Source of the DNA: Pomphorhynchus laevis
Lineage: Eukaryota; Acanthocephala; Palaeacanthocephala; Echinorhynchida; Pomphorhynchidae
Length of the DNA: 64,000 nt
Direction of reading: 5' to 3'
Assembly: GCA_012934845.2 (NCBI GenBank)
Contig: WNNJ02001288.1
Location: forward strand, 124,001-188,000
Each line of letters opens with the position of its first letter. The first letter of the stretch is position 1. Shown piece after piece: positions 15,801 through 63,480 of this stretch. The translations under genes and the position numbers were made by a program. The notes under the pieces were generated by a model that saw only the letters and a program-made list of their open reading frames with translations, made no database searches and was not told where the DNA came from.

Positions 15801-18800
15801 ACTTTTATCTATTAGCTGGTCTATTTTTTGGTCTATTAGCCGGGGTCTTTTGATGTTTACGTTCATTTCGTTTTTGATGTTTATTTATTAATATGTTTTC
15901 TAAATCGTTGGCTCTTCTGTTAAATCGCTATATTCTATTGAATTCGCGTTGACTCTTTGCTCCATTGTGCGAAATCGGTATAGGACCCATTTTAATTTTA
16001 TCGGGGTATGAAGACGCATTACATGAAAGTTCATTGCATCATCGAAGGAGATTGATCCAAGATTGTGGTAGAACGAAGTTGCAATTGATATTTTTGAAGC
16101 ACTACGTTTGAAGTGAAGTGTGAAAATCCATTAGACTGTTTCTCCGTTTATTTCTTACTATTAATCAGATAACCTTCGGTAAGTTGTACATTTGTTGTGA
16201 TTCATTAAGTTACTGCTATTTTCAGTTTCATTGATCTTTTATTGATTTTTATTTTTTATTTTTTATTCCGAAATTGATTTCTGATTTTTTTCGCTAAAAA
16301 TGTATTTTTCACAAAGCTACATTAATATTTATATTTAAACTTAACTGTTTAACAGGAATCTGCTGACACACACAGCCTTCGAAGTTTTGAAATTGACAAT
16401 GTTGTTGATAGAGAGTTTGGCAGTCAGGACGGAAGTTTTCAGGAAAAGACAGTTGAGGAGTTGGAACAATTGTTAGAACATTGCAAGGTGTGTTTTAAAA
16501 AATGTCAAAGCGTGCCGGCTAACATATTAATATAACAATTCTAAACTATTAATTGGGACAAGATATAAAACGAATTTTTCTGAGTCACTTGCTATTAAAC
16601 AGAAACAATAACACATTTTACTATCTCATAGAAGCAAATTTATATTGGCTACAAAATATGGTATCATCCCGACTATAGATTATACCATATTTTGTAGCCG
16701 ATATAAATTTGTTTCTATGAGATAGTAAATTCGTGTTATTGTTTCTGTTTAATCTGCACTTTTTAGATTCTAGAGTGTGCAGTATTCAATATACTGCACG
16801 CTAAGCTCAATATTCGAATTTTATTAATGAACTGGAAACTATCCAAGTTATTAAGATTATCAATATAGTCATTTGTATACGATTCAATTATTAAATACGC
16901 CTATTTTGTATTTTATTGTTATCGACTTTAATTAAATAAATAAAGTTTTAATCGTAAAGAATTATTTTACTTTTAATCGTAAAGAATTCTTAACTTTAAA
17001 TCTGAATGAATTCTTAACTTTAAATCGGAAAGAATTCTTTACTTTAAATCTGAATGAATTCTTAAATTTAAATCGGAAAGAATTCTTAACTTTAAATCGG
17101 AAAGAATTATTAACTTTTAATCGGAAAGAATTCTTTCCGATTAAAAGCATCACCATTTGCAGTATTATATTAACTTGTGTTTATTTTAGATTTAGAAAAA
17201 TCAAATGTTTCTTCTAAGTTCATATATTATATAAATAATAAATCGATATAAAATTATATAAAATTACAATATATCGATAGCTCCTGTTATCATCTGTAGG
17301 AAAATTACAATTAGTTCATTAAATAAATAAGCATAAATTTTATTATTTAGTTAAATATTCAAAATTTGTAAAAAAAAGGAAAGAACATGAATGAAAATTT
17401 TTTTACACTATTTCTAGTATTATCTTATATCAAAGAAAACACTATTTGCAGTTATTAACTTTTGTTTATTTTAGATTTGTCTTGAATTATTTAAGTTCCT
17501 ATAATTTGAGAGCAAATGCATAAGTTTATATTTAGTTTATAAGCTAATCAAGTACTTGAAGTGTATTTTACAATTTGTTATTAGCATAAACATATATATT
17601 ATGTGCTACTTTGTTAAAATACTTAGTCGGCAACTTATGGAATCTCATAATCCCCGACCAAGAGTATTATGATCATTTTTCAAGCTTAAATATTCAGGAG
17701 ATCATATCTTGATAAATGCGTATGGTGCTTTAGTTTACAACGTATAGACACAATCAAATCAAATTACTGATGTTGTTTAATCTTTACAACTAAATTAATC
17801 TTTAATCCCTTCAACCGTTACTCCTGTTGATGTAAATTGGATCAGTTGTTTTCTTATTTTGTAATGACATTTAGTTAAATTCGATTGTGTTGAAGTTTTA
17901 GACCAAACCTGTGGCCTTTGCCATTCGAACAAACATTTCATACTCACCATCAATTGAAGATATGGGTCCTATTCCGGAGAAGGTTATTGGATTTTCAGAA
18001 AATGAATTCATGCATATAAAAGATGTGCGTTTGTATTTAATTTTGAAATTTTGTTTAGAGAACTTTCTGTTTAAATTCAGCGCTACAATAATGATTGGTG
18101 GATTGGTCGTCGTGTTGTCATCAATGCACCACTAGGATTTATCCCTTCGCCAATGAAAATTGAAAGGATAAGATCGAATAATGAAATTAAAAAGTATTTG
18201 CGTTTTACAATTCATCAAATTTATATGACATGTGTTAAGTAGTAAATCTATTGTTGGTGCCTTTCAAATTAGCCGTCCAAAATCCGGAGGTAACGATTAC
18301 AAAATTTGCGAAATAATTAAATATTTTCAAAATATTATTATAAAAATATGAAAATAATATTAATTATAAATAAATTATCTTAATTAATAGTTATTAATAA
18401 ATTTGTAAATATACCGACACAATTAAATTAGTTTTATTCCAAAAATTTAAATATTTCGACAGCTCTTGCTATCGAAATATAATGGAATGCATGCTTTGTC
18501 GAAATTTAAAACATGACTTGTATTATTAGATTATATTATTATATTATAATAAAATATGATAATATATTATATAATATAGGATAATATTATATCTAAACTT
18601 CAATTATATATAAATTATTATATTGTATTTAAAAAATATATATTACAAAATCCTTAAATTATAAATTCAAATAAATAATTAAACTAAAATGATATTTTAA
18701 AAAAGAAATATGCTTTATTGTTGGGAATAATATTATCCATTTTATAAAATAGGCATCTTGTTTTACACGTGACAGGTAATTACTTTCATATGATGGAATA

Positions 18801-21800
18801 TTAGTTTAATCAAAATTAACATAATATGGGATTTAGTTCCCAACATATCACATATTTAAAGAGTTATCCAAATTAGATAATGCTGTCAAGCAAAACCAAG
18901 TAGAAAATTCAGAAAATTTATTCAAAGGATAGATGAAAATTAGTAGAAACATAATACTATACGTATTATTATAATACTATATAGAGTATAGTTATACTAC
19001 TATAGTTATATAGAGTATATTATAATACTATAAAGAGTGAAGATTGTAGATCTTTATAGATCTTGTTTCAGCCTGCAATCGCCTTAAGCACGGTAGCCCC
19101 CTGTCAGATGCTGATGGATGACCCGTTGTAAGTTTAGTCTGAGTCAACTAAACTAGGTGGCGACACCGTAAAAGCAACGTTAAAAATTATGGCTTAAAAA
19201 TTACATGTACTCAACCAGATTGGAAAAATACGTAAGTGATAATGATTTTATTTTAGATCTTTTAAATGTAACAGAAAAAATTGTATAGTTTGTGATGTTA
19301 TAAATAATAATTGCATTGTAAGTAATACGACAAACAAATGTTTTTCATTAAATATTAATAATAATTGTAACCGCAATATCGCAGGTGTAGTGTATCTAAT
19401 AAAATGTACATGTGGATTACAGTATATTGGAAAAAATATCAAATGTTAAAAACTATGTTTAGGCAACATATATAATATACAGCATAATAGTCAAACTATA
19501 TTTCATAAACATATGAGATTAATAGGACATGATATTAAAAACTGTAAATTATTTATTTTAGAACATATTATCGAAGAAAACATTTCAATATTAAATCAAA
19601 AACTTTTAGAAAAAGAAGATATTAGGATTAAAACGCTTAATTCCATATACCCATTAGAATTGAATGACGTTGTACAAGGAATTGGCAGAAGTAGTATAGT
19701 AAATAATAAACAACTATATTATAATAATCCGGTTAAACGCACACCAAGAAGTCATGGTGATAAGAGGAATTGAAAAAATAGAGTTAAAAATATAAAAAAA
19801 GATATGTATATAAATGAACAGTTAGAAATATTAAAAGAAATTTTAAGGGATAATAAGCTAAAAGATCTTTATGTAAATATAAGAAGTTTTTCTAAATATA
19901 TCATATGTTCAATAAATCAAAGATTAATTGACGACTATGATAGGTTAAGTTGTATAATAGACAGTTTTTGTAATATAAAATACTATAATCGTACAATAAA
20001 TGTAAATAATAACAATAGAAAATATACATTAACCATAAACTTCATTAATAAATGTATAGATAACATAAATATAGCCGGACTTTTAAATAATTCTAAAAGT
20101 AAAGAAATAATAGAGTTTGATTTAAGTAAATATATTCCTAAAATAAGGTATAAACTCCTACCACCATTAGGACGAAAAATTTGTAATTATAATACAGAAT
20201 TAAAATCAATATGTAAAGACAATATTAGAAACATAATGTAAACAGAATGCAATTGTAAAAGTCTTAGTTTTGATAAAATAAATGAACATATATGTACCCA
20301 TAATCTAGAATTAATTGAAAATTGTGAATTAAGAAAGCTGCTATCGAAAGGGTATAAATATAGATTAAATAACAACGACAAAAATAAAATTTACAGTTCG
20401 TTATATAATAACTTAAATGATTACTTTAGTAAGCTGATTAATAGTGAAAGCTCGAATATATCTAAGATAAAAATTTGGAAAGATTATATATTTGATAAAA
20501 TTAAAAATAAAATGAAAATAACAAACAATTATAAAAGGAAAGATAAAATTAATAAAGATATGTATAAAGAACTTACTAAATTAAAGGATAACTATATAAT
20601 AACAACTATTGATAAAGCTAGTAATAACTTTGTCTTCATATGCAAAAAGCTTTATTATGATATACTAATGAAAGAGGTTAATTCTAATGATTTAAATGTA
20701 AATCCAGCATATGAACGTAGTGAGTTGAGTTTAGAAACAATTATTACAAGTCACTGTTCTATAATGGATAAAAAGGGTATAAAGGTTGAATCAGATAATA
20801 AAACTATACCTATATTATATTGGAATCCAAAATTACATAAAAATCCAATAAAACCTAGGTTCATATGTAGTGCGTTTAAATGTACATTAAAACCACTTTC
20901 GGTCCATATGAATAAAATACTTGAAGTAATTAAAGCACACTTCAAAAATTATTGTAAGTTAATCGAAATTAATACTGGTATAAAACACTATTTCAGTATT
21001 AATTCTACAAAAGAATTTTTAGAACAGACAAAAGGAATAAATTTTCAAAATATAAATACATACGATTTTAGTACGCTTTATACAAATCTAGATTTAGTAG
21101 ATATTAAAGAAGCGTTAGTAAAATTAATTAACCTTATATTCGGAAAAAGATATACATATATATGTTATAATAATTATAACGCCTATCTAACAAAAATTAA
21201 ACCATCAAATAAATATAAATATATGGATAAAATTGAATTAATAGAATCCTTAAATATTTTGATAAATCAAAATTATTTAAAAGTAGGGACATCTATATTT
21301 TGACAAGTAAAATGTGTTCCAATGGCTGGTAATAGTAGCCCAATTATAGCTGACTTGTTTTTAAGCTTTATAGAATATAAATTTGTTCATAACTGTGTAA
21401 AAACTAAATCTAAACAATATAAATATATGAAATATATGTTTCGATACATTGATGATATATGTGTATTTAATTCTAATAATTTTTATTCAATTTAGTGAGC
21501 ACATTTATCCAGAAAGCCTTATTCTTAACAAAACCAATATTGATGATAAAGGTGTATATCTAGATATGAACATTAAATTAACATTAACTAAAACTACTAT
21601 TAATTTATATCGTTAAAGATGACATATTTAAATTTACAAGAAACATATTTTTGCATGAGCATTCATGCATAACATATAATATAAAATATAATACATTAAA
21701 TAATGAAATTTTAAGAATTGCAACAATATGTAATGATATTGGCTTTCTTCAAAATCATTTAAATAATTTAAATAGATACATATTTTAAACTAGATTACTA

Positions 21801-24800
21801 TAAAAATAACATCAAGCAGAAAATAGTAAAATATATAAATCAACACAATAATATAAAGAATAAATTTAAACTCTTAGGTGGCAAATTTTTATGGATGGAT
21901 AATAAATAATATACTTTGCATTAGAATAAGATACTAGATAGTTATTTCAGAGGAAATACATCATTAGCATGTATTTGGCCCCGCTGCTATGTTGGGTAGA
22001 GGAGTTAGGGGCCGAAACCTGATAGCATAGCAGTTCCTCCTGATGACCTCTAATTCTTATTATGATACAACGTCTGTTATTTATTAGTCAATTCATAAAA
22101 ATGACGTTTATTTTAAATTTTATTTTTTATTTTTATTTTTTTTAACTTGATTTAAATTATAGAAAATCTAAAAACAATTATTAATTTTATTATTTAATTA
22201 TTAAATTTTGATTTAGCATTATTATGTTTTGTTTATTTTATAATTATATAACAATACGTAGACTCAGTTAGCTGATTTGATTATATTTTGTATTCATAAT
22301 ACTATATGTATTTGTAGTACAGACCCCATAGTTAAGGATATTCGTAAATGTAAGATCTCTACTACTGAAACTGCCCCATGTAGGAATTTGTTGGGGATAA
22401 AGAGTAACTCTATTATTATGATGGTATAGTGAATCTTCCAAAGCTTTATCAAGACCTATGTTACCGATCCAGCTTGATGGTATCTCCTTCCAGCTGACAA
22501 ACTTATGTTTCTTCAAAATCTTCCAGAAAGAAGACTGAGATGGATTAAGGCGAGCAATGCTAGCCTTATCTCTGCTTAATATGAGTCTATACATTGAACT
22601 CTAATATTCTTTCGATAGAGCTTGTATTAAGGAAGCAGAGAGATTGGAGAGACGTAATGCGAAGATATATAGGAATTGAATCGGGTTAAACTCTCACAAC
22701 CAACAACAGGTGAGATCTTAATAGTGGCTTGAAAGAGGGTTACTGACTGAATCAAGGGGAACCTCCTTCTCAGCAAAGTATCTTCCTTCACCGCCAACCA
22801 AGTAGGTTTTGCGAGTTGGTCAGTTGTTGACGTGACTGCTCAGTACAGAAGGGCTTAAGCAGCCACTTCACATGTTGCAGTAGGATGTCGAGGAGATAAT
22901 TATTCTCTGTGCAATTGAGGTAGGGAGTTGTGGTTTGTATAAGATAATCGTCCCTAGCTCTGCATAGTGCTGATTTAACCCAACGACCAGTACTGTAGTT
23001 GAAGTCACCAAGAATCATATCATAGTCGCTGTCTTATATACTGCAAATAGGTCACGGTTCTTTTTAATCTTCTCAAGTCGAATATAGATATTGGCTATGT
23101 TAATGCGTACATACTGAAGCATTCATCGATATGAGCCACTTTATTTATTAGCTTCCAATTACCGCTTTTCATGGATAATTTGATTCCTTTTTTTACCATT
23201 TGCGGTTGAAGAAGTTCTTTGTTCAACATGTACTGGAGCCAGAAGCTTAATCGCCGAGACCAATTGATTTATCTAATTCTCGAAACTTTTAGTTTGCTCT
23301 GCCATTTCCCCCTCCATGATGTCTTTGAAATCTTGATAATCACTTTTAAACGAGTAAAGGCATCGATGATTTAAGAGTCCACACCTTTTAGGTATGTTTT
23401 AATTACATCAGAAAAGGTTGACACTGTTGCTAAATAATACTTGAAATGCTGGCTTTGATATTCTTAAAAAACCTTATATTTTTTCAAGTGTGCAAGATTA
23501 TTCAATCCGCAGTTTGAGCATATCAGGCCTTTGTATTTTGGCAACTACCCATATGTTTGAGTCTTGCAAGTGGGATATTGCGGTGCAAAATCGCCAGTTA
23601 AGCCCCAGTGGCCCCACTGATGACATTTTTGACAGTTTGGGTATGTGACGTCATTGAATGATATATGTTGGAAAGTAAGATTTGTCTCCAGAAAGGGGTT
23701 AAACGCATTCTTCGGCAATATCATGGCGTTGTCTTATATTGTTGTGGCAAACGCGCTGGTAGTAACGATTCATCTTTTCTTTTGATATAACGCACGTCGG
23801 CCAGTTTAAATGCTTTTTCAATTCTTTAATGTCATCATCAAGGGATGTATCAATATTATTGATTTTTACAGTTACCAAGATGGCATTATGCTCTACAATA
23901 CCAAGATGTCACAGTGCGTTTCCAAAATGATCAGTGTATGGTTGGGCCAACTCGTTGGTAGTAAATGAAATTCTGTATGTTTCTAAATACTTTCTGGCAG
24001 AATTGTAGATTATTCTGCCGGGATATTTCCCAACGAAGGATTTTAAAAACAGTTTGAAATAATCGTCGACTTTCTGTGGAGAGCTTATTCTTATCTACAC
24101 AAGGTTTACAAAGTTTTAACAGGGGGAAGTTTAATTGAATTAAGTAAAATTGCACTAACCTGCTTTTGTTCGTCAACTTTGGAAAAGAAATCGCTGTAAG
24201 AAGTCGTACTTTTCATGTTTTCTTTGTGATGATATTGTTGTTACAGTTTACATTTTTTCTTCGTCGACATGAACATATTTTCAACGCTGTCGGAGCTATC
24301 AGAGGTTTGTACTTTTCCAGCAAAAATGCAAGACATTTCAGTTATATTCCAGAAATTTCAACCATTTCGTGTACAAAGAACGGTATAAACGAATTCTCTA
24401 ATGTCAGTAACGATTTAATATTTTATGGTAACGGAGGTGATGCTTTTCAGCTGAGCTCCTCCTGTAAAGAAATTTGATCATCTCGTCAGTATTTCAAGGA
24501 TATTTTTCGAATTACTGAGATCATTTATATCTAGATGCGAAACTAGATTTATCTTAAACTCTACAAGAATAACAGGCAATAATTACCGTATCTCATTCGT
24601 GTCTTCTGGGCTTGCCGAACTGTGTTAACTGTGTATTACAGCACCCAGCGTGGTTACGTAAATGTACGGTGTTCAAAGCTTACCAGAAGCTGCATTTGGG
24701 TTCCTCTGGTAAACAAATGGCCAACTATATCATCCATACTGCTGCCCTGATTCATCACGTCGGCGAAGCTTACAAAACTCTAGAACTCCAGATGAATGCC

Positions 24801-27800: not shown

Positions 27801-30800
27801 AAATTTATTTTTTTTAATTAAAATTATAATTTGAACAAATAACTTAAATCTAATATTAATGTGAATCGGAATTAATTAAATTTATTAAATTAATTAAATT
27901 CTTATCACCATAAACTGAGTACTTTGTAGAGAAAGGATTTTAAACTCATCTAAAAAGTGAATAGATTTTTAAAATATACAAAAAATAATGCATTTTTCAA
28001 ATGTGTGAACTAACAATATCTTTGCTGTTTAAAGGCAGTTACATTGCATCCACCATACGACGTTGTACCAAATATGCGTCCAGTTATTTTGATCGGTCCA
28101 TCATTAAAAGGATACGATGTAACGGACATGATGCAGAAAGCTGTTTTTGATTTTCTTAAAACCCGCTACGAAGGTTCAATCACAATAACTCGTATAACAG
28201 CCGATATTTCATTAGCCAAACGAACTTGTTCTGTCGGTGTTTCTACAAGTAAAGGAGCGCTATCAATTATGGAAAGAAGCGTAGCTAGTACAAAACAAAT
28301 ATCAGACAATCTGCGCGGGATTTTCGATGAAATTGAACGCATATTTGAACTTGCTCGATCACTTAATCTCGTCGTGCTAGATTGTGACACAATCAACCAT
28401 CCCGCACAAATGCAGAAGACTTCACTATCGCCTATTTTAGTATATTTAAAAATTAGTTCTCCAAAAGTGAGTATTAAAATCAATAATTATAAATTATACT
28501 TTAAAATTTATAAAATTTAAATTTTACCTTTTTCATTGATATTTGCTATAAATTTGAAATTTTATTGATTTAAATATTTATAAATTTGCAAATTTATAAA
28601 TTTGTTATTAAAATTAATTCTTTTATATAAATTGATTCATTTTATTGCTTTTTCAATTAGAAATAAATAATAATTATTACTTTGTAATAATTTACAGTAG
28701 AATTGCAAAATAAGATTAAACAAACACAATTTAAGTAGCAAAAGAAAAAAGAAAAATTCTCAAGTTCAACAGCCTGCGTATCCATTCATATGTTCCTAAA
28801 TTCATTTTGAATTTTATATTTTTAAAATAAATAATGTTTTTTTGAATATAGTTTTATTTTATATTTTTTAAGTATACTTTATTTCATTTTTATATTTTAT
28901 TTTGATTTATTTGTAAAAGTATTGAGTAAAATTAAAACTTAATTAACTTTGTAATTAATTACTTTCAATTAATTTTAAATTAATAGGTTCTGAAATGAAC
29001 GAAATCAAATTAACTTCAATCATCGTCAATTTCATTAATTTAACGTCACAAATGTCTTAAATAAAATATATATTTTAAAAATTAACATTTTTATCGTTTT
29101 TATTCGGCTGTAATTCGTTCTAAACGGTTAGAAAATTACGGAGCAAATCGACAAAGTGAATTTGATCGCCACATTCGTAAGGTGACATTTCCTTTTACAA
29201 AGAATGAGACGAAGCAAGTTTTAAAGGAATCAATAGTGTCTGTATTAATAAGAATCGTTGTACCTTTTTATACAAACATAAAAGCTTTTAAGCCTCTAAG
29301 ATGCAATTATTACAAATACTGATGTGATCCGATTGGTGACAAAAGTTTTAAAAGAATCCCTAGTGTTGTTATAGAGGATAACTGTAATTTTCATGAAATT
29401 ACTTATTATCTTATAAAAAAACATTTTGTTATTAATTTATTTTGTAATAAATTTGACCTTGTTATAATTGTAAAGATCCTGTGCTTAGATTTTAAATTTT
29501 AGATTTAACATAACTTTAGAATTTCGGAGCAGGATGAACAAAACTCCAATTTATTTTTATAATACGTTAACTGCAATGGTATCACCAGAAAATCAAAACG
29601 TAATTTGAACACATTACATTTTGTTTATGTGATGATGCTAAATAAAGTTATATATTTGTTTGTAAGCCGTTAGTTTTTTATCAGCTTAGGAAACTTAAAT
29701 TAAAGAAAAAAACCAGGGTGTATCAATTTGTGATAACATTCAAGCATTCATTAAAATTAATAAATTAAATTTTGATTGGATTCTACAAAATATGATGCTT
29801 ATATGACATTAATTTTTGGTAATATTTTCAATTATTCAACGAAATACATCAGAAGTAAAATTAGAAATACGATTATTTGACTTTCATGATACGAAAGAAC
29901 TCTTCTCCATCGGTAATGAATAAAGATAAGTTTGAAATAACTGAGTTTGATCCATTTATTAGAATGAACAAATTGCGTTTTTGATTTCTGTTGATGCTAC
30001 ATCAGTTGCTAAAAGTCAATCCGTGTTTTGTTGATCCTACTCTGAAATTCTTAAGTTAATAAATGGATCGATTATATTTGATGTTATTTAAATTTTAATC
30101 TTCACATTTAGTAACAAAAATCAGTTTTTTATGTTTGCAATAATTTGTTATCCTCATAACATTAACTTTCTTATTCTCACTAGCGAATTTATATATTTGT
30201 TAGTAATCCGTTAACTTTTTATCAGCTTAATAATTAAATTTATGAAATTAAATTAGTGATTTATGATATTCTAAGTGCGTGGCTTGTTATACCTTGTGGT
30301 AAGGTAATTTTTAGAATAAAGTTCTTTCATTATACGAAAGAACTCTTCTCCATCGGTAAAAATTAAGATCAGTTTGAAATAACTAAAATACATTATATCG
30401 ACGAAATGCATTATAAATAGAATTAGTAATAAGACCCATCAGATTTTAAAAAGTCTAATGGATCAAAAAAATCTAATTGTCTCATTTTCTTGTTTTTTAA
30501 ACAAGAAAATGAGACATTAAAAAGTAAAATAGAGCGAAAAACGAAGAAATACAAACAATCGATAAGAAATAGAAACAAAAAGAAACTAATTCCCAAGCAA
30601 ATAAGAATAGCTAAAAAATAAAAATAGAGATATGCAAATAAGACAGCAAAATAGCAATAAAAAATTATCCGTTTTTTATAATTATAATTAAATAATTATA
30701 TTATGTTAAGAAAAATAGAAAAATTTGAAATGTTAAATATTTGTAGAAGATAAAGATTTGGAATGCTAAAAGATAGTTACTAACAATAAGATAATTTTAA

Positions 30801-33800
30801 ATTTTAATTCGAATCGTTATATTTTGTGTTTTCCTTTTGTAATTAAATATTTATTATTTGGTATTTTCATTTTCTATTTTGTTGCTTTTATTTTACAGGA
30901 AAACTAATCATTTCTAATTTATTTAATCAATTAATTATCGATTAATTATCGATTATTTCAAGATTGTATTTAATTATCTTGTGATTGTCGATTGATATTA
31001 CGCTTATGGTCATTATTTCATTGTTAGACCTAGCGAATTATGGCTCGCTATACTTTGACTACGACGCCTTATAAGTAGCTAGCAAACATATTCTGTTTAG
31101 GTACTTCAGAAATTGATCAAGAGCAGAGGAAAATCTCAGACAAAAAATCTTAATGTTCAACTGGTAGTAGCTGAAAAGCTTAGCCAATGTCCAACGGTAA
31201 ATTATATTTTGGATTCCTCAATTTATGTATCATTTAAAATTAAAAATTTCACAAATTTACAAATTAAAAAAAATTAAAAATTTCACATTCATGTGTGTAA
31301 CCAATCAAAATTAGTATCGCTTACTAATTTGCTCTTTTATATCGATTTATATTATCGATTTCTATTGCTTTCTATTGCTATATAATTATGTGATTTAATA
31401 TCATTTAATAATTCGTCGTTTTAAATTTGAATCATCCAACATAGTAAGCCAAGTATCGCATAATGATAAATATAGCTAACTTAATGTATCTTAAGTATCT
31501 TAATGTATCGTTATGCAGTATTTATATATAAAATGTATCGATTTATCCAGTATTTTTATCAACCGATAATAATTAAAATACCATCTATTAGAATAAAGAT
31601 TATGTAGCAGGATGATGTCTTGGTATCATATTGGAACTACTAGATGAAATGAACTGTTTTGTTGTCAAAATGTAAATTCAATATTAACAAGTTTAAATTA
31701 TCCTTTGTTTAAATAATCCAATGTTGTCCACAACAACATTTCGGGTTTATTCTCTTCACCTACACTGCCGTCTTCTCAAACTTTCTGTACAGAGACTCAG
31801 TCTAATGTAATTCATTAAGAGAATATTCCATAATCATAATGTAGGATTAACACATCAGCTTGTTTCCTTCGATGAAAAGAAGCAGTGGGTTGTCTTTGGG
31901 AACCCATGTAAAAATACTCTTGTAGTTGAAACTTCTTTTCTGAAAAAAAATTCTTTATAAAATTTATAAAATACTTGTTCCAGAGAATTGGATCAGAGGT
32001 CATCAATGTTTGATGACCTCTAATAGGATTAGCGGTCATCAAACATTATATTCAATTATTGTAAGTAATTCATTTGTTAATAAAAACGGTAATATAATGT
32101 AAAACACTATCTGTATTATATATATTATAATATAGTATATTATATAGTATATTAAATCTATATTATGTCTATTATATCAAGTTACAATTTAAAATTTAAA
32201 TTCAAAATAAAAGTTAATTTTTTGAATTGACTAATAAATAACAAATTATGTATCAGAATAAGGATTAGAGAAATTCAATAAATTTATTTATAAATAATAA
32301 CCTTATAATCAGATAACTGAGTCTACTTATTTTATTCTAAATAATAATGATAAATAATAACTAATTATATAAAATTTTATACAATTTATATTTATATCAA
32401 CTTAAAATTTAAAATAAGAGTCAATTTTAAGATTGAATTTTATTAAATTTTGTTATTTTATAAATAATATACGATATATTTGAAAATAAATAGTATATAT
32501 TACGTGTATATATACATGTAATTTATACATGTATGTATTTGTATTTTTAAATAGTTAATAATGATCTATAAGTTGTAATTTACATATTATAGCAATTGTT
32601 AAAATTTTCTTATTTAATGTATTATATTTATAAATATAAATAATAAACGATTGTTATATAAGATTTTATATAAGCAACATTTCTTTTTTAATTAAAAATA
32701 AAATAAAACAATCATTTCCATGAAAATTAACGTTTGCGACAACAGTATTAAGTTACAATAATAGCATTTATTGCGGCTAACTGTAACAACACATTAATTA
32801 AGTATAATATCCACAAATAATAAAACTTTGATTGCGTAAAGCAGATCAGCTTACTGAGTCTACGTATTTTATACAATATATAAATAAAATGAATAAATAA
32901 TTATAAGATTTTATCTAATTTATATCAAGTTAAAAATAAAAAATTGAAATTTAAAATAAACGTAATTTTTATGAATTGACAAATAAATAGCATACGTTGT
33001 ATCAGAATACGGATTAGAGCTCATCAGGTGGAACTGCTATGTTATCAGTTTTCGGCCCCAATTTCTCGACCCAGCATAGTAGCGGGGTCAAATACGTGTT
33101 CAAGACGTATTTCCTCTGATGAAATTTTATTATTTATTATTACATTATTCAAATAACAAGGTATCTTATTATTGTCAGTCAATAATTGTCTAGTGTTAAA
33201 CGAACTTTTTAATATTAATTATTGAGAAGACCCACCCATTGATATTTGGGTGTCTTTTATATAACTAATAGTTAGATAATCTACTGCTATCTTACTGTTT
33301 TAAATAAAAATTTATGATTTTTATTCTTATTATTGGCTGAAGAACAACTTGTTGACGGAAACATTAAATATAATCAACTAAAGTCTTTATTTATTAGAAA
33401 TAATACTAATAATATTGCGAAATTGAATATTTGAATATTAATTTTCTTTGCTTTAGTTTATTGAACTATAAAAATATTGTCTTTCCGTTTTTTACAGTCT
33501 GCCTTTGATATTATTCTTGATAAAAATCAACTGGATGATGCATGCTCATCACTTGCTCAATATCTGGATAATTATTGGGATGCAACACATCCGAAACTTA
33601 CAGAGCCAACTGAGAAAGTAATTAGACCCGAACCGTTAACAGCATCAGCCTCTCCTCGCCGCTCTCACGTTCCTCTACCACCGCCACCAATACCATCCGA
33701 TTTGATGTTGTCTAGATTATTGATGACGCGGACGGCCAACGAAGGGCAAACTCGACTTTATTCGCCAGAATCTGTACACGTAGTTCGCCCACAGTGGCAA

Positions 33801-35775: not shown

Positions 35776-36936
35776 TTAGTGACAATTGTTACAGTTAGGA
35801 TGGCATCTTTTCATACTAGAACATTTACATCCACCACTTGAATCTCCTGGTCCTTTTGGACCCCATCTAGGTCCCTTTGTGGCCCAGCATAACTGAAGTT
35901 TGCACATTGTACAAACAAGCGCATCGCATCCCGCTACTTTCTCAATCAAGACCTTGCACCTAGGGCATAACATTGCTAAGCCGTTGTTAATTCGCTGTTC
36001 AGCATCTTTTACAGTAGCCTGCCAACATTTTCTATCACGAAGACTTTCCATTGAAGATTTATACTGACTACATGTCTTACCTTCATGTTGGGCTTTACAT
36101 GCAACGCAATTTACTTTGTTACACTGAAGACATTTAAAATTTAATCCTTCCTTAATGTCACCGTCATAGATCACCATTCCAGGGCAATTAACGGAAAAGC
36201 ATTGGAGCCTTGATTGTCCCGGAAGTAATTCTGCTTTCATAACACTTAAGCGATGCAGTCTAGCCATGACTTCGGGTGTACATATTGCTCTTAGCTCACA
36301 TTCTGTAATTGAGCCTGAGCAGTTTTGTATCGGACATTTGATATCCGGTTCTGTAGAATTGCTGGCATATTCTTTTAAACACTGTTCGCAAACTTCATGT
36401 AAGCATGATCTTAAACGTATTCCTCTATTACTTTTAAATACGTTTGCTTCAATGTCTTCAAAGCAAATCGGGCACGATATTCTATTCGAGCAAATTACGA
36501 TACTTTGAGTGTATGCATTTGTTAGTGCTTTCATGGTGTCGGAATTCAGTATATCCGCGGGAATTATATTGGCACTAGTTAACATGGTTACATTCTTTGA
36601 ATCATTCTGCAGTGCATGTTCAACACTAATATGGTGTAAGCGATCAATGATATCTTTTGAACTGACTGCAAGTATTTCTGATTCTAAAATCGGAAATGAA
36701 CACTCCGGAAGAGGGCATAAAATTTCCGGGTTCTTTGTTTCCCCTACAATATGATGAAATAGGCAATTTCGACAAATTTCATGAAGACATGATTTCAATC
36801 TAATTCCAGGTTTGTCACTAAAAGGCCCGTTAGTTGAATGCGATAAACAAAGCGGGCATTTGATTGCCGTTTCGCAGTATACGATAAGTTTTTGACTATA
36901 TTCTTCTATCTTCTTTAGAAAATCAATTGACGACAT
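35776..36936 (-). CDS. RBCK1-like: HOIL-1-like RBR E3 ubiquitin ligase with duplicated RING1
   Basis: Intronless 386-residue protein. RBR ligases take ubiquitin from an E2 on RING1 and pass it through a catalytic cysteine in RING2; HOIL-1 belongs to the LUBAC complex in animals studied. Domains: RING (C27, C30, C50, H52, C55, C58, C74, C79), a second very similar RING (C155, C158, C178, H180, C183, C186, C201, C206), IBR (C246, C251, C269, C272, C277, C280, H284, C289), RING2 (C324, C327 onward) with GCDALVCTMC, whose C342 matches the HOIL-1 catalytic cysteine. The end, WATKGPRWGPKGPGDSSGGC to NCNNCH, is the HOIL-1 signature. UBL and NZF domains of vertebrate HOIL-1 are absent. Both RINGs share GIRL[KR]SCLHE[IV]C, indicating internal duplication. 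The frame is intact, so it is probably functional. A retrocopy origin is possible because there are no introns. Confidence 0.85.
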   Translation of the reverse strand: MSSIDFLKKIEEYSQKLIVYCETAIKCPLCLSHSTNGPFSDKPGIRLKSCLHEICRNCLFHHIVGETKNPEILCPLPECSFPILESEILAVSSKDIIDRLHHISVEHALQNDSKNVTMLTSANIIPADILNSDTMKALTNAYTQSIVICSNRISCPICFEDIEANVFKSNRGIRLRSCLHEVCEQCLKEYASNSTEPDIKCPIQNCSGSITECELRAICTPEVMARLHRLSVMKAELLPGQSRLQCFSVNCPGMVIYDGDIKEGLNFKCLQCNKVNCVACKAQHEGKTCSQYKSSMESLRDRKCWQATVKDAEQRINNGLAMLCPRCKVLIEKVAGCDALVCTMCKLQLCWATKGPRWGPKGPGDSSGGCKCSSMKRCHPNCNNCH

Positions 36937-37079
36937 ATTATAGAATGATTAAGATTCTAAATTGAGATTCAATATTACTGTAATATCTAATATTACATTT
37001 CTCGTACAAGTTAGAGCATTGAAATTTCATGTGATTAATCTTGATAAATCGTATCTTAAATGCTCTCTAACATAATTAA

Positions 37080-37573: not shown

Positions 37574-37658
37574 ATCAGCTAACTGAGTCTACGTATTTAA
37601 TATGATTATAAAATAAACAAAACATAATAATGCTATATCAAAATTTAATAATTAAATA

Positions 37659-38822
37659 CAGAGTATTTCATTATTATAGACCCCTTTTTGCATTATTATA
37701 GACCCCTATTTGCATTATTATAGACCCCTATTTGCATTATTATAGAACCCTTTTTGCATTATTATGTACCCCTATTTGCATTATTATAGACCCCTTTTTG
37801 CATTATTATAGACCCCTTTTTGCATTATTATAGACCCCTTTTTGCATTATTATAGACCCCTTTTTGCATTATTATAGACCCCTATTTGCATTATTATAGA
37901 ACCCTATTTGCATTATTATAGAACCCTTTCTGCATTATTATGGACCCCTATTTGCATTATTATAGAACATATTTAAATAAAAATTTTACCCAAGAATGAA
38001 TTCTCAAAATTCAGAACCCAGTAGAGAACATGAAGAAAAAACACGCAAAAAGAGACAAGTGATTACCAGAAACATTATAGAATGTTTTCTCAATCAGCAG
38101 GGAAAGGACTTAACCTTTAAGGACATGTCTTCTATATTAAACCTATCAAAAAGTACAGTAAAAAGGTTATATAAGAAATATCTCAATGGGGATTTTGTTG
38201 ATTTAACAAATTTTAAAACTGCTGGAGAGAAAAAAACATTGAACTTGAAACATTTGTCGTTTGAGAAAAGCATTTTATCTACAGAGATAGCTTCTAACCC
38301 ATGCGCAAGTTTAAAAACACTGGCATCTACTCTTTCTTCATACAATGCTTTAGGTTCCTATTCCATTTCAACCGTCTCAAGAATCATAAAGAAAATGAAT
38401 TACACAAGGAAGACGCTGACCATAGTTACAAATGATAACTTCATAATGACTGGATACTTTGAACATATGAGAAGATGGGTTTTACAAGCAATTGTACATG
38501 CTGATTTTATTTAAATTAAATACCTTTTTAAATTTTTAGTTTTAAAATTATATTATGGTTATTCGTAAAAAATAACATGAACCAAAGCAACCTGAAGGAG
38601 GAGTCTATAATAATGCAAATAGGGGTCTATAATAATGCAAATAGGGGTCTATAATAATGCAAAAAGGGGTCTATAATAATGCAAATAGGGGTCCATAATA
38701 ATGTAAAAAGGGTTCTACAATAATGCAAATAGGGGTCTAGAATAATGCAAATAGGGGTCTATAATAATGCAAAAAGGGGTCTATAATAATGCAAAAAGGG
38801 TCTATAATAATGAAATACTCTG
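37659..38822 (+). mobile_element. Mariner/Tc1-type foldback element with 22-bp subterminal repeat arrays
   Basis: The ends are inverted: CAGAGTATTTCATTATTATA on the left and its complement, TATAATAATGAAATACTCTG, on the right, flanked by TA on both sides (37,657-37,658; 38,823-38,824). Each end consists of direct 22-bp units (CATTATTATAGACCCCTWTTTG): about 13.5 on the left (37,669-37,966) and about 10 inverted on the right (38,600-38,812). A Naiad tail at 22,175-22,210 shows the same host sequence with a single TA and no insert. The TA duplication and encoded protein point to the IS630/Tc1/mariner superfamily; the repeat-built arms recall foldback elements. Confidence 0.85.
37996..38514 (+). 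CDS. Helix-turn-helix DNA-binding protein (transposase N-terminus only)
   Basis: 172 codons, intact, between the two repeat arrays. Residues about 18-62 form a first HTH (FKDMSSILNLSKSTVKRLYK); a linker with TAGEKKTLN follows; residues about 95-145 form a second HTH (NPCASLKTLASTLSS ... YSISTVSRIIKKMNYTRK). This is the bipartite DNA-binding layout of Tc1/mariner/IS630 transposases. The frame ends at VHADFI, just where the first catalytic aspartate is expected, so no DDE domain is present. The ORF could bind the 22-bp repeats and act as a repressor or helper-dependent relic; this is inference. Confidence 0.7.
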   Translation: MNSQNSEPSREHEEKTRKKRQVITRNIIECFLNQQGKDLTFKDMSSILNLSKSTVKRLYKKYLNGDFVDLTNFKTAGEKKTLNLKHLSFEKSILSTEIASNPCASLKTLASTLSSYNALGSYSISTVSRIIKKMNYTRKTLTIVTNDNFIMTGYFEHMRRWVLQAIVHADFI

Positions 38823-39149
38823 TAATAAAATTAATAATTGTTTTTTAGATTTTCTATAATTTAAATCAAGTTAAAAAAATGAAATTTAAAATAAACGTTA
38901 TTTTTATGAATTGACAAATGAATAACAGACGTTGTATCAGAATAAGAATTAGAGGTCATCAGGAGGAACTGCTATGCTATCAGGTTTCGGCCCCTAACTC
39001 CTCTACCCAACATAGCAGCGGGGCCAAATACATGCTAATGATGTATTTCCTCTGAAATAACTATCTAGTATCTTATTCTAATACAAAGTATATTATTTAT
39101 TATCCATCCATAAAAATTTGCCACTTAAGAGTTTAAATTTATTCTTTAT

Positions 39150-39266
39150 ATTATATTATAATATATTATATTATAATACAATATATTATATATTATATAT
39201 TATAATATAATATATTATATTATAATATATTATATGTTATAATATATGTTATATATGTTATATTAT
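39150..39266. repeat. AT microsatellite
   Basis: Almost pure TATTATAATATA-type sequence between the Naiad 3' end and the tandem array; similar runs lie inside each tandem unit. Confidence 0.8.
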
Positions 39267-42200
39267 ATGTTATATATTATATTATATTTTATATATTATA
39301 TGTTATATATGTTATAATATATTATATTATATTATAATATATTATATGTTATAATATATGTTATAATATATATATTATATGTTATAATACTAGCAAAAGA
39401 AACCAATTGTTTAAATAGAAAAATTCTTAAAAATAATAGAACAATGCAGAATAATAAACCTGATGTAACGTTAAATATTTTGTAAATATTTTGTATACGA
39501 TTCTTTAGATTAAATAATCTTTTCTATTTTTATTTTTAAACTTTATTTAATTTTTCTACTAATTTTAATTATTATTTTTTATATATTTTTTAACTTTTTA
39601 AAATTATTTATTTCGAATTAAAATATTTGTGATTATTTGTGCTTTGTTTCTAAACTATTTTGAATCATCATTCTTTATTATATTTTCAAAAGTTGTCGAA
39701 ATCGTGTCAAAAATTCAAACAGCAGTGAAAGCAGCTTTTTATCGCTAATAATAGCAGCACCTGTCCAAATCAAATGACGGCGATCGTTTTGATTTTTTTA
39801 TATGTAAGCATTTACATTTTGAAAACCATTGTAATTTTCTGAAGATACGAACAGAGGTTAGCGGAATATTAATATAAAAATTCATTTCTTTAATCCAGCA
39901 CCAACAATTCTTTATCAAAAATGGATTATTATCAAATATTTTTAATAAAACATTTCATAAATTTCATAAATATATTTTTTTAATTTCATAAATTTAAAAA
40001 TTAAACAATCTTTCAAAATAAATTATGATCAATTATTTATCACAATGTAACTTATGAAATTTACATGTCCGTTATATATAAACAAAATCTTAAAACTACA
40101 TATGTAATGCTTTTTTAATCCATCACTCTAACGAATTATTGATTTAATCCTTGGTATTTACCCTGAACTGAAATGTAAATTTTTAATGGATGCAGTTAAG
40201 TATTTAAATAGAGATATGGCATTATGACTGAATAAACAATTATTTTTAACATTGTACTTTATATTATAAATATACAATTAATAAACAATTATACTTTATA
40301 TAATAAAAAAAAGTGATCTATAATAATGGGAAAAGTGATCTATAATAATGGGAAAAGTGATCTATAATAATGGGAAAAGTGATCTATAATAATGGGAAAA
40401 GTGATCTATAATAATGAAAACCTCTGTAGTCAATATTATACATTATTAAATCAGCTAACTGAGTCTACGTATTTAATATGATTATAAAATAAACATTATG
40501 TTATATATTATATTATATTTTATATATTATATGTTATATATGTTATAATATATTATATTATATTATAATATATTATATGTTATAATATATGTTATAATAT
40601 ATATATTATATGTTATAATACTAGCAAAAGAAACCAATTGTTTAAATAGAAAAATTCTTAAAAATAATTGAACAATGCAGAATAATAAACCTGATGTAAG
40701 GTTAAATATTTTGTAAATATTTTGTATACGATTCTTTAGATTAAATAATCTTTTCTATTTTTATTTTTAAACTTTATTTAATTTTTCTACTAATTTTAAT
40801 TATTATTTTTTATATATTTTTTAACTTTTTAAAATTATTTATTTCGAATTAAAATATTTGTGATTATTTGTGCTTTGTTTCTAAACTATTTTGAATCATC
40901 ATTCTTTATTATATTTTCAAAAGTTGTCGAAATCGTGTCAAAAATTCAAACAGCAGTGAAAGCAGCTTTTTATCGCTAATAATAGCAGCACCTGTCCAAA
41001 TCAAATGACGGCGATCGTTTTGATTTTTTTATATGTAAGCATTTACATTTTGAAAACCATTGTAATTTTCTGAAGATACTAACAGAGGTTAGCGGAATAT
41101 TAATATAAAAATTCATTTCTTTAATCCAGCACCAACAATTCTTTATCAAAAATGGATTATTATCAAATATTTTTAATAAAACATTTCATAAATTTCATAA
41201 ATATATTTTTTTAATTTCATAAATTTAAAAATTAAACAATCTTTCAAAATAAATTATGATCAATTATTTATCACAATGTAACTTATGAAATTTACATGTC
41301 CGTTATATATAAACAAAATCTTAAAACTACATATGTAATGCTTTTTTAATCCATCACTCTAACGAATTATTGATTTAATCCTTGGTATTTACCCTGAACT
41401 GAAATGTAAATTTTTAATGGATGCAGTTAAGTATTTAAATAGAGATATGGCATTATGACTGAATAAACAATTATTTTTAACATTGTACTTTATATTATAA
41501 ATATACAATTAATAAACAATTATACTTTATATAATAAAAAAAAGTGATCTATAATAATGGGAAAAGTGATCTATAATAATGGGAAAAGTGATCTATAATA
41601 ATGGGAAAAGTGATCTATAATAATGGGAAAAGTGATCTATAATAATGAAAACCTCTGTAGTCAATATTATACATTATTAAATCAGCTAACTGAGTCTACG
41701 TATTTAATATGATTATAAAATAAACATTATGTTATATATTATATTATATTTTATATATTATATGTTATATATGTTATAATATATTATATTATATTATAAT
41801 ATATTATATGTTATAATATATGTTATAATATATATATTATATGTTATAATACTAGCAAAAGAAACCAATTGTTTAAATAGAAAAATTCTTAAAAATAATT
41901 GAACAATGCAGAATAATAAACCTGATGTAACGTTAAATATTTTGTAAATATTTTGTATACGATTCTTTAGATTAAATAATCTTTTCTATTTTTATTTTTA
42001 AACTTTATTTAATTTTTCTACTAATTTTAATTATTATTTTTTATATATTTTTTAACTTTTTAAAATTATTTATTTCGAATTAAAATATTTGTGATTATTT
42101 GTGCTTTGTTTCTAAACTATTTTGAATCATCATTCTTTATTATATTTTCAAAAGTTGTCGAAATCGTGTCAAAAATTCAAACAGCAGTGAAAGCAGCTTT

Positions 42201-42769
42201 TTATCGCTAATAATAGCAGCACCTGTCCAAATCAAATGACGGCGATCGTTTTGATTTTTTTATATGTAAGCATTTACATTTTGAAAACCATTGTAATTTT
42301 CTGAAGATACTAACAGAGGTTAGCGGAATATTAATATAAAAATTCATTTCTTTAATCCAGCACCAACAATTCTTTATCAAAAATGGATTATTATCAAATA
42401 TTTTTAATAAAACATTTCATAAATTTCATAAATATATTTTTTTAATTTCATAAATTTAAAAATTAAACAATCTTTCAAAATAAATTATGATCAATTATTT
42501 ATCACAATGTAACTTATGAAATTTACATGTCCGTTATATATAAACAAAATCTTAAAACTACATATGTAATGCTTTTTTAATCCATCACTCTAACGAATTA
42601 TTGATTTAATCCTTGGTATTTACCCTGAACTGAAATGTAAATTTTTAATGGATGCAGTTAAGTATTTAAATAGAGATATGGCATTATGACTGAATAAACA
42701 ATTATTTTTAACATTGTACTTTATATTATAAATATACAATTAATAAACAATTATACTTTATATAATAAA
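39267..42769 (+). repeat. 1,231-bp macrosatellite, three near-identical tandem copies
   Basis: Copies 39,267-40,497, 40,498-41,728 and 41,729-42,769 (the last truncated). The landmark TAGCAAAAGA recurs at 39,391, 40,622 and 41,853, exactly 1,231 apart, and I see only a handful of substitutions. Each unit contains a Penelope pLTR with a hammerhead-like core (39,839; 41,070; 42,301). Copies 1 and 2 also contain a 22-bp array (GTGATCTATAATAATGGGAA type, five units, 40,310-40,432 and 41,541-41,663) ending CTCTG-TA, then a bit of Penelope endonuclease sequence and a Naiad tail end. No genes. Confidence 0.9.
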
Positions 42770-49485: not shown

Positions 49486-50158
49486 CTAAATCGCTCGCGC
49501 ACTTCCGCGCATTAAGGCCGAAGATGCTTCCTGGAATATCCTTGTAGCTGCTTTCGGGAAAGGGGCGCCTAATACCCGATTTTCAAAAGTGGCGATTTTA
49601 CGGACCAAAGCCTCGCCCCTGTCGTTCCATCCTCCAAAGCTCTCTACTACTGCTGGCATAAAGTTGTAACCGACGGACTCTACGCTCTGTTTATACTTAC
49701 AACATTTGACGCCTTCTGCGTAAGCGTGTGCTGTCGAACCTCCGATCGTTCCGGCCATAGATACGTAAGTCGGTTGTAAAGTGTTTGTCACGGCCAAATC
49801 TACAGCCTCGGGTGGGTCCCCAGTGAGAAGGATATCTGCCGGACTCTCCTGTAAGTCCGCTAGGAAGTGACGCGTTTCCAACCCCATGTGCATCCTCGCT
49901 CGTTGGGCGGCGCGAAAGAAAACGATTTGAGTAGAATCATGCCTGATGCCCCCGAACTGGTAAGTTAGAGCATGCAACCCATAACGATCGCCGTGAAGGT
50001 AGCATCGGCTGCATCTGTAAGCGCTGGGCGATTATAGAATCTTTAACCACATACGGATAAGGGCGCATAATTGGGATGACGGAAAATCGGTTTGTGACGC
50101 CTATTTGGGAATTACGTGTAGCCATGCCGATGCATGCGGTTGGGCGACGGCCAAACAC
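49486..50158 (-). mobile_element. Non-LTR retrotransposon C-terminus (zinc/endonuclease-like type)
   Basis: 49,486-49,977 encodes HALTYQFGGIRHDSTQIVFF, RPADILL-like SPADILLTGDPPEAVDLAV, YNFMPAVVESFGGWN and FQEASSALMRGSAR. It is the same C-terminal domain as at 1-1281. The next frame up (to 50,158) continues the same element with a frameshift. The codons are GC-rich, unlike the surrounding DNA, suggesting a more recent or different-origin insertion. Confidence 0.75.
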
Positions 50159-55960: not shown

Positions 55961-56054
55961 TAATAAAAATTATAAGTACATATATATTTTCATATATTTT
56001 ATCAAAATTAAGACTTTTTCGATTGCATGCTGTTTCTGTGGTAATCATTTTTTA

Positions 56055-57720
56055 GAGATCATCAAGAGGAACTGCTATGCTATCAGGTTTCGGCCTCTAA
56101 TCACTCGATCCAACGTAGCCGCGGGGCCGGATGCATGCTAAGGACGTATTTCCTCCGATTAAATGTGATTATGTAGTATCTTATTCTAATAAAAAGTATA
56201 TAATTTTTTATCCATCAACAAAAATTTCCCGCTAATGATTTTAAATTTATTATTAATATTATTGTGTTGATTTATATATTTTACTATTTTATGTTTGAAG
56301 GTATTTTTATAGTAACCTAGTTTAAAATTATTGCATTTTTTAAAGTTTATTATTTATATTATATGGTATGCATGAATGCTCTTGCAAAAATATGTTTCTC
56401 GTAAATTTAAATATGTCATCTTTACGATATAAATTAATAGTAGTTTAAGTTAATGTTAATTTAATGTTCATATCTAGATACACACCTTCTTTATCATTAA
56501 TATTGGTTTTGTTAAGAATGACGCTACCTGGATAAATTTGTTCGTTTATTGAATAAAAATTAGTAGAGTTAAATACACATAAATCATCAATATATCGAAA
56601 CATATATTTCATATATTTATATAATTTAGATTTATTTTTTAAACAGTTATGAACAAATTTATATTCTATAAAGCTTAAAAATAAGTCAGCTATAATTGGG
56701 TTACAATTACCTCCCATTGGAACACCTTTTATCTGTCTAAATATAGATGTCCTTACTTTAAATAATTTTGATTTATCAAAATATTTAAGGATTCTATTAA
56801 TTCAATTTTATCCATATATTTATATTTATTTGATGGTTTAATTTTTGTTAGATAGGCGTTATAATTATTATAACATATATATGTATATCGTTTTACGAAT
56901 ATAAGATTAATTAATTTTACTAACGCTTCTTTAATATCTGCTAAATCTAGATTTGTGTAAATCATACTAAAATCGTACCTATTTATATTCTGAAAATTTA
57001 TTCCTTTTGTCTGTTCTAAAAATTCTTTTGTAGAATTAATGCTGAAATAGTGTTTTATACCTGTATTAATTTCGATTACCCTACAATATTTTTGATGTGT
57101 GGTTTAATTACTTTAAGTATTTTATTTATATAAACAGAAAGTGATGTTAATGCACATTTAAAAGCACTACATGTGAGCCTAGGTTCTATTGGATTTTTAT
57201 GTAATTTTGGATTCCAATTAATATAGGTATAGTTTTATAATCTGATTCAATTTCAATACCCTTTTTACCAAGTCAAAAATTGACTTGTAATAATTGTTTC
57301 TAAATTAAAATCACTACATTTATGTTGTGTTTATATTTATATCATAAATATAAACATAAATATATTCATAAATATATTTTATACATAAATATATTATATT
57401 TATAATTAACTTCAGTATATCATAATAAAGCTCTTTGCATATAAAGACAAAGTTATTTCTAGCTTTATCAATAGTTGTTATTATATAGTAATGCTTTAAT
57501 TTAGTAAGTTCTGTATACATGTCTTTATTAATTTGATCTTTCCTTTTATAATTGTTTGTTATTTTAATTTTCTCTCTAATTTTATCTAATATATAAGTTT
57601 TCCAAATGTTTATCTTTGATGTATTTAAGCTTTTACTATTAATCAGCTTACCAAAGTAAGCATTTAAGTCGTTATAAAACGATGTGTAATTTTTTTATTG
57701 TTATTATTATTTAATTTATA
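56055..57720 (-). mobile_element. Naiad copy, RT half and 3' end
   Basis: Read leftwards: KDMYTELTKL...[17 protein letters not shown] (57,520-57,400), motif A region IYTNLDLADIKEALV (56,965), the A-B insertion ([20 protein letters not shown]), motif [21 protein letters not shown] (56,717), catalytic [20 protein letters not shown] (about 56,460), then the 3' end with the structured motif (56,059-56,158). Frame breaks occur, but the catalytic half 56,445-56,717 is open. 57,340-57,410 has an AT-rich expansion. Confidence 0.8.
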
Positions 57721-62150: not shown

Positions 62151-63480
62151 ATTCTAAAAATAACATATTTAAATTTGCAAGGAACATATTTAACAAATTT
62201 ACAAGAAACATATTTTTGCATGAGCATTCATGCGTACCATATACTATTAAATATAAAACATAAAATAATGAAATTATTATAATTGGCATAATTTGTAACG
62301 ATATTGGTTTTCTTCAAAATCATTTAAATTATTTAATAGATGCATAAAAATATAAAAATATAATTAAACAAAAAATAGTTAAATGTATAAATCAACACAA
62401 TATTATTAAAAATAAACTTAAATTATATAAAGATATGAAATATATGTTCCGATATACTGATGAAATATGTGTATTTAACTCTAATAATTTTAATTCAACA
62501 AGTGAACAAATTTATTCAAACAGCCTTATTTGTAATTAAACTAATATTGGTGATCAAGAAGGTATATATCTAGATATGAACATTAAATTAACATCAATTA
62601 AATCTATTAAAATTATTAAAATTATTAAAATATATTAAAATCACATATTTAAATTTAAAAAGTCATAAGCTTTCATTAGCATTCATGTATTCCACCAATA
62701 TTATAATATTATATTACAATATTATAATATATTATTACAATATTATATGTATTATAATAAAATACATTTAATAATGACATTTTAAAAATTTCCATAAAAC
62801 GAAATAATATTAACTTTCTTAAAAGTCATTTAAATAATTAAATAGATGCATATTTTAAACTAGGTTACTATAAAAATAACATCAAGCAGATATCTATATT
62901 TAGCAATATTAAAGAAGCATTTTAAAAATTAATTAATCTTATATTCGGAAAAAGATATACAATATATGTTATAATATAACAGAAAATAGTAAAATATATA
63001 AATCAACAAAAATAAATTTAAAATCATTAGCGGAATAATAAAATAATACAAATAATTAAATAGTAAATAGTAAAATATATAAATCAACTTAAATAAAGGA
63101 ACATATTTATGTATAAAAAATAATGTACTTTGTATTATAATAAGATATTAGCTAATCAAATTTAATCAGAGGAAATACGTCATTAGCATGTATTTGGCCC
63201 AGCTGCTATGTTGGGTCGATAAATAGGGACCGAATACCTGATTACATTGCAGTTCCTTCTGATAACTGCTATTCCTTTTCGAATATATCGTATATTATTT
63301 ATTAGTCAATTTATAATAATTAATATTTATTTCAAATTTTAATTATTAATTTTATTTTGTAATAAATATAAATTGTGTAAGATCTCATATAATTATGCAT
63401 TATTTATAATTATTTATCTTTATTTTTAATTTATATATTATATAAAATACGTAAACTCCGCTATCTGATTTCATTTACCT
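62150..63480 (+). mobile_element. Naiad 3' half, opposite orientation to its neighbour
   Basis: Scrambled 3' pieces: FLHEHSC-like and [15 protein letters not shown] (62,210-62,340), [18 protein letters not shown] (62,437-62,500, YTDE replacing YIDD), [10 protein letters not shown], then the structured motif (63,166-63,264) and the tail ending in CGTAAACTCCGCTATCTGAT. With the minus-strand half to its left it forms a head-to-head inverted pair. Confidence 0.7.

Follow-up and report, generated by a model that had tools for sequence, protein, structure and literature searches.

The stretch of DNA considered here, hereafter the window, comprises 64,000 nucleotides of the acanthocephalan Pomphorhynchus laevis (assembly GCA_012934845.2, contig WNNJ02001288.1, positions 124,001 to 188,000 of the forward strand) and harbours a transposable element that occupies positions 37,659-38,822 exactly and ends in inverted arrays of 22-bp repeats. 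An initial sequence-only reading had described a foldback-type mariner/Tc1 element with inverted ends of about 300 and 220 bp made of 22-bp repeats, outer ends CAGAG...CTCTG, a duplicated TA and an empty target site in the same window, and these structural points are borne out. The dinucleotide TA precedes CAGAG at 37,657-37,658 and follows CTCTG at 38,823-38,824. The left end consists of a 10-bp tip (CAGAGTATTT, 37,659-37,668, + strand), which places the start of the first repeat core 10 bp from the end, as across the family to which this copy belongs (family A, below), and of an array of 14 cores whose 13 spacings are all 22 bp (37,669-37,966, + strand). The right end is formed by an array of ten cores on the − strand (38,604-38,812), with eight spacings of 22 bp and one of 21 bp, and a 10-bp tip, likewise on the − strand, that reads AAATACTCTG on the + strand (38,813-38,822). 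The distance between the element end and the last core is 308 bp in the left arm and 219 bp in the right. Tandem Repeats Finder (TRF) delimits 22-bp arrays at 37,669-37,966 (13.5 copies, 93% matches) and 38,599-38,817 (10.0 copies, 90% matches), and self-identity at a lag of 22 reaches 0.90 on the left and 0.84 on the right, whereas the other lags between 5 and 44 (22 and 44 themselves left out) average 0.28.

The element is inserted in a host repeat, another copy of which (21,901-22,330) contains the empty target site with a single TA at 22,191-22,192. When the flanks of the element are joined in silico with one TA, they align to this second copy with 230 of 256 columns identical, and the alignment runs unbroken through the single TA. 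The structure of the array and of the insertion site is far beyond chance.

Between the arrays lies an open reading frame (ORF) of 172 amino acids (37,996-38,514, + strand), which carries both predicted helix-turn-helix (HTH) regions and the last 30 residues of a transposase, without the DDE domain. It aligns in frame to residues 1-144 and 321-350 of an intact 350-aa transposase, and from the restriction of the match to these two segments it follows that about 534 bp containing the catalytic domain are gone and that the two predicted HTH regions have been kept. The junction of this internal deletion, marked by a short overlap, is found at 38,417-38,427 (+ strand). The window copy is a non-autonomous deletion derivative that retains its ends and has lost its catalytic domain.

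The genome assembly that was searched spans 249.4 Mb in 3,242 contigs (the window lies in contig C299), and the element used as a query gives 204 matching pieces (40 of 161 candidates scored). Many members of the family match positions 1-769 and 763-1164 of the query as two separate pieces with about 530 bp between them. Full-length relatives with a DDE domain, which the sequence-only reading had proposed to look for, are present: the frames of the loci L008 and L010 are intact, with 349 and 350 codons, and the ten best places in a protein search of the genome all match residues 1-350, six of them without an internal stop. The Pfam domain DDE_3 (PF13358) is recognized in L010 (E 1.1e-26) and L008 (4e-28), and the DD34E spacing is given by D257 to E292 in an alignment of 16 proteins. 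The full copies have a predicted Mos1-like or Sleeping Beauty fold, in which helices are modelled at residues 25-63 and 88-133; the Mos1 structure 4u7b aligns to the predicted model over residues 19-350, but at a root-mean-square deviation of 12 Å. The Pfam scan finds no HTH domain above its cut-off in the family-A transposase.

With ends located by a tip match of up to three substitutions, 18 of the 23 family-A loci examined are delimited at both ends, with lengths from 1,038 to 3,124 bp. The expectation that other copies should also be flanked by a TA duplication holds throughout family A, TA being found on both sides of all 22 delimited copies (the 18 above together with L038, L040, L041 and L046) and also at the only recognisable end of six further loci. 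The TA duplication and the DDE_3 transposase with DD34E spacing place the family in the Tc1/mariner superfamily, as the sequence-only reading had assigned it. Arm length and gene integrity are not linked, and the idea that arms are longest in intact copies was rejected: the intact-frame loci L008 and L010 reach 3,124 and 2,424 bp, but the four full-frame copies L038, L040, L041 and L046 measure only 1,437-1,653 bp.

Array-bearing ends belong to a whole clade in the P. laevis genome and are not the property of one odd element. Six transposase families (A-F) have 22-bp arrays locked to their ends, the transposases of families B-F sharing approximately 30-60% amino acid identity with A (relatives at about 59%, 56%, 53% and lower). 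Thirteen loci outside family A were examined, L066-L072 and the more distant L073-L078, and ten of them (L066-L073, L077 and L078) have 22-bp arrays at both ends; family B is represented by L066 and L067, C by L068, D by L069-L072, E by L073, L075 and L076, and F by L077 and L078. The general layout of an end is TA, a 10-bp tip starting with CA (usually CAG), and then units with a 22-bp period, each made of a CANTWTTATA core and 12 further bp. The consensus units are CATTATTATAGACCCCTATTTG in family A, CATTTTTATAGACACCTTTTCT in B, CATTATTATAGATCACTTTTCC in C, CAGTTTTATAGGCAACTTTTTT in D, CAATTTTATATACCCATTTATT in E and CATTTTTATATGTACAAGTATT in F; by eye, nine unit positions are identical in all six, eight of them within the first ten.

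The geometry of these ends is largely constant. Spacings were scored between neighbouring cores with up to two substitutions (three for E and F), a run being ended by a spacing outside 17-27 bp in family A or 18-26 bp in the other families, and exactly 22 bp was obtained in 508 of 530 cases (A 392/409, B 24/26, C 17/17, D 57/60, E 11/11, F 7/7). The first core lies 10 bp from the end in 36/36 arms of the 18 delimited family-A copies, and among L066-L072, TA-CAG followed by a core at position 11 is seen at 12 ends out of 14. Families E and F have only two to four units per scored run (TRF gives up to 5.1 copies), and their seven fully seen ends, which do not include the outer end of L076, located outside the stretch examined, have TA-CA and eight further bases ahead of the first unit. 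Genome-wide, the composite pattern TACAG-N5-TT-CAKTWTTATAG, which fits the usual tips of families A, C and D and not those of B, E and F, occurs 162 times, against 0 for the reversed pattern. Two of three matches to the mariner-type domain PF01359, taken as controls (L079 and L080), have no 22-bp array; no inverted ends can be delimited in them, which makes them a weak control.

The size of the arrays is far less constant than their period. Family-A arms contain from 2 to 36 units in a single run, and the left side of L008 holds 66 cores, with interruptions. In barcodes built from unit variants, L007 and L027 have C-D-B-A-A in each of their two arms, and the left arm of L010 contains a nine-unit block twice, from which it seems that the arrays grow and shrink by blocks. 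Rearranged ends are also encountered. L002 and L023, both of family A, have as one of their arms an inverted copy of the left end, which extends into the gene body, the kind of rearrangement expected of long inverted arms. At the end of L066 labelled '5pr', which reads TA-CACC, an apparent inner unit takes the place of the normal tip; this looks like either a truncation or an inner unit serving as a transposon end.

Taken together, these features lead us to read the element as a non-autonomous deletion copy of a cut-and-paste transposon of Tc1/mariner type (DD34E, TA) from a clade whose ends are made of phased 22-bp transposase-binding units, a reading to which we give a probability of about 80%. 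Each 22-bp unit is probably one site for the two-HTH DNA-binding domain, and the fixed geometry found in five further families strengthens this idea. One transposase molecule would cover one unit with its N-terminal two-HTH domain, so that successive molecules would be lined up head to tail on each end, starting at the tip. The outermost unit, the sole carrier of the TACA tip, would position the catalytic domain for cleavage and, because TACA stands at the cut and is absent from the inner units, could be the one chosen. The inner units may raise the local concentration of transposase and help to pair the ends, and their number would be free to vary by duplication or loss of blocks, the period being held. 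Since the window copy has kept its arms and the DNA-binding half of its gene, intact transposase could mobilise it in trans, and its product might also be a competitor of that enzyme.

Several observations weigh against this reading. The deletion junction of the window copy, searched on both strands with up to four substitutions, is found in only one of 80 loci, the window copy itself (L001), and there is therefore no sign that this copy has moved after the deletion. Among the other families, L075 and L076 have an array on one side only, and L074, a distant relative interrupted by stops, offers no more than a one-sided, degenerate 21-bp repeat (positions 2299-2381 of that locus), for which reasons it is excluded from the family counts. 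One family-C end (L068) reads GT-CAG and is flanked by GT, not TA; one family-B end (L066) reads TACAC, not TACAG; and the outermost cores of L073 begin with AA instead of CA. Long arrays are also not always kept, L002 and L016 having only two to three units on one side. The main weakness of the binding-array reading is that a tandem array may keep its period simply by descent, because slippage adds whole units, although families with about two to five units and approximately 30-40% identity to A still keep the period and most of the core.

According to the strongest rival, only the outermost unit is bound and the inner units are passive, satellite-like products of slippage maintained by homogenisation. 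The widely variable unit number of family A, including the 66 cores of L008, and the block duplication in L010 support such a process, and in the Tetris element of Drosophila, repeats of the terminal inverted repeats (TIRs) are described as expanding into satellite arrays (PMC4079207). Passive decay should, however, scatter the spacings through insertions and deletions, whereas in all six families, at approximately 30-60% transposase identity to A, the period and the 10-bp tip offset are maintained and the core is largely preserved, and we consider this explanation unlikely. A role of the units as binding sites of a host factor, or as a promoter or silencer array, is more improbable still: a promoter of the gene could lie in the arrays on either side of it, and promoter activity, lowered by the element's own transposase, is reported for the TIR of Bari3 (PMC4120734), but a promoter array needs neither to be present and inverted in both arms nor to be in register with the cleavage site. 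That the family is a true foldback element of another superfamily, Foldback (FB) or Galileo/P, merely resembling Tc1/mariner, is hardly credible. The arms are indeed long, internally repetitive and able to fold back; against this stand the DDE_3 DD34E transposase, its predicted Mos1/Sleeping Beauty fold and the TA duplication, and the transposase, with no THAP match at E up to 1, does not qualify as Galileo/P-type. The term 'foldback' used in the sequence-only reading is apt for the arms, which are long inverted ends composed of internal tandem repeats, and fails for the superfamily, the transposase being Tc1/mariner-like.

For a transposon whose repeated terminal units are probably sites of its own transposase, comparable systems are known. 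The ends of Tc1-mariner elements are reported to contain two or three direct repeats (PMC4120734), and in the inverted repeat/direct repeat (IR/DR) group of Tc1 elements, which includes Sleeping Beauty, Bari, Paris, S and Minos, a Tc1/mariner transposase and a TA target are combined with direct repeats in long inverted ends, as in P. laevis. The direct repeats of this group are described as transposase sites (PMC4120734, PMC3828361, PMC7827188): binding to all three repeats has been shown in Bari1, the middle one being bound weakly (PMC3828361), and Sleeping Beauty has two sites per end and an ordered assembly (PMC7827188). The IR/DR elements carry their two or three repeats in ends of about 220-250 bp, whereas an arm of family A contains 2 to 36 contiguous units with a 22-bp period; two or three separated repeats per end are not the layout seen here, E and F coming nearest, but with contiguous units.

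Long inverted ends with internal tandem repeats are shared with Galileo, of the P superfamily, and with Foldback-like elements including Tetris, and secondary transposase sites have been reported in the repeats within the long ends of Galileo (PMC3688188). These elements differ from that of P. laevis in that Galileo belongs to another superfamily and Tetris is non-autonomous, with repeats of about 220 bp (PMC4079207). The HvSm elements of Hydra and Schmidtea have DD34E and the TA duplication in common with family A, and Hydra, one of their hosts, also contributes proteins to the distant relatives of family A; they differ in their reported TIRs of 15, 20 and 56 bp, the account in section 9 of PMC7325037 making no mention of arrays. 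A literature search, with most subscription journals and the Repbase entries outside its coverage, brought up no title or opening of an abstract on Tc1/mariner ends made of long 22-bp arrays. The element is ordinary in its class and unusual in the architecture of its ends. Recognition of Tc1/mariner ends has been modelled on a few sites per end, two in the case of Sleeping Beauty (PMC7827188), and an architecture of 2 to 36 near-identical, phased units per end, with a period kept across distant families, offers a natural series for the study of site number, spacing and end choice. The arrays further point to a simple function for the long repetitive ends that foldback-like elements carry.

The relatives of these transposases extend beyond the Metazoa. 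Among the 120 listed of 913 proteins matched by family A, the closest is P0001 (74%), and the closest with an organism name come from the microsporidian Dictyocoela muelleri (60%), with Hydra and Cucumispora further off; the Tc1/mariner elements of Dictyocoela and Cucumispora are compared here by protein. A 48-row tree unites families A-D with seven Dictyocoela and four other sequences in a clade of 15 (98/95), in which family C is sister to the Dictyocoela protein P0004 (100/99). The two are 84% identical over 363 residues, and nothing closer to family C than P0004 appears among the best 120 of 296 matches. So close a match between proteins of an animal and a microsporidian points to horizontal transfer; contamination of the microsporidian assembly is an alternative explanation of the Dictyocoela match. 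On the side of the worm, family C is seated in its own contigs, its ends being found in the window itself: a truncated end at 40,309-40,426 (− strand) comprises five 22-bp units, identical in unit to L068, and the tip AAAACCTCTG followed by TA, and a second copy of this end lies at 41,540-41,657 (− strand) within a 1,231-bp tandem duplication. Dictyocoela infects gammarid amphipods, and P. laevis uses gammarids as its intermediate host.

It is conceivable, if less likely than not, that the clade exchanged a short terminal repeat for a phased array acting as a variable-length, head-to-tail transposase filament, and that it has crossed repeatedly between an acanthocephalan and microsporidia, perhaps in shared amphipods. 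Published work already describes horizontal transposon exchange between microsporidia and animals (PMC4202319), and the 84% match is likely an added case of transposon transfer, here between parasites that may share hosts. The genome paper of P. laevis describes 260 Mb in 4,021 contigs, figures somewhat different from those of the assembly searched, with 63% repeats and 2.94% DNA transposons, and reports that proteins derived from amphipods or teleosts are not increased (PMC7310846); a word search for 'Tc1' in its main text gave no hit. Our literature search for acanthocephala, microsporidia, transposon and horizontal transfer combined returned nothing. Eight loci with 25-32% identity turned up in a scan of viral contigs, and they belong without exception to a single IMG/VR record series.

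The window contains a number of other features. The tail of the host repeat in which the element sits recurs at 38,823-39,101, 32,866-33,119, 63,115-63,358 and 56,052-56,206, with 80-93% identity to 21,901-22,330. Its name in the sequence-only reading, 'Naiad tail', is an unconfirmed label, for which a literature search on Naiad yielded no papers. A permissive Rfam search of the tail (21,850-22,400) revealed no hammerhead ribozyme and a single chance-level microRNA match (E 1.8), and the whole window gives 0 Rfam matches at the gathering threshold. Upstream of the empty repeat copy, two ORFs (19,774-21,303) are present, one without a Pfam match and the other with a match below the cut-off. Downstream of the element, a stretch of 1,231 bp is repeated in tandem at 39,266-42,769, in three copies that are 99.8% identical, the last of them shorter; at its two junctions, the truncated family-C end adjoins a piece of the host-repeat tail that flanks the element. 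A further tandem array, of a 24-bp unit in 7.9 copies (16,946-17,135, TRF), has a consensus unlike the 22-bp units. The open frames at 361-1863 and 49,486-50,031 are presumably pieces of non-LTR retrotransposons, with no Pfam match at E 0.01 in 361-1293, and an open frame at 28,014-28,520 encodes a guanylate-kinase domain, which we take to be part of a calcium-channel beta subunit and which is in keeping with an animal origin of the contig. Upstream of the element, a single open frame at 35,776-36,948 encodes a RING-type zinc-finger protein that is 91% identical to P. laevis GJ496_007001; the latter maps to contig positions 188,474-189,547 (100% identity), about 28 kb away, and the frame in the window is a local duplicate of it.
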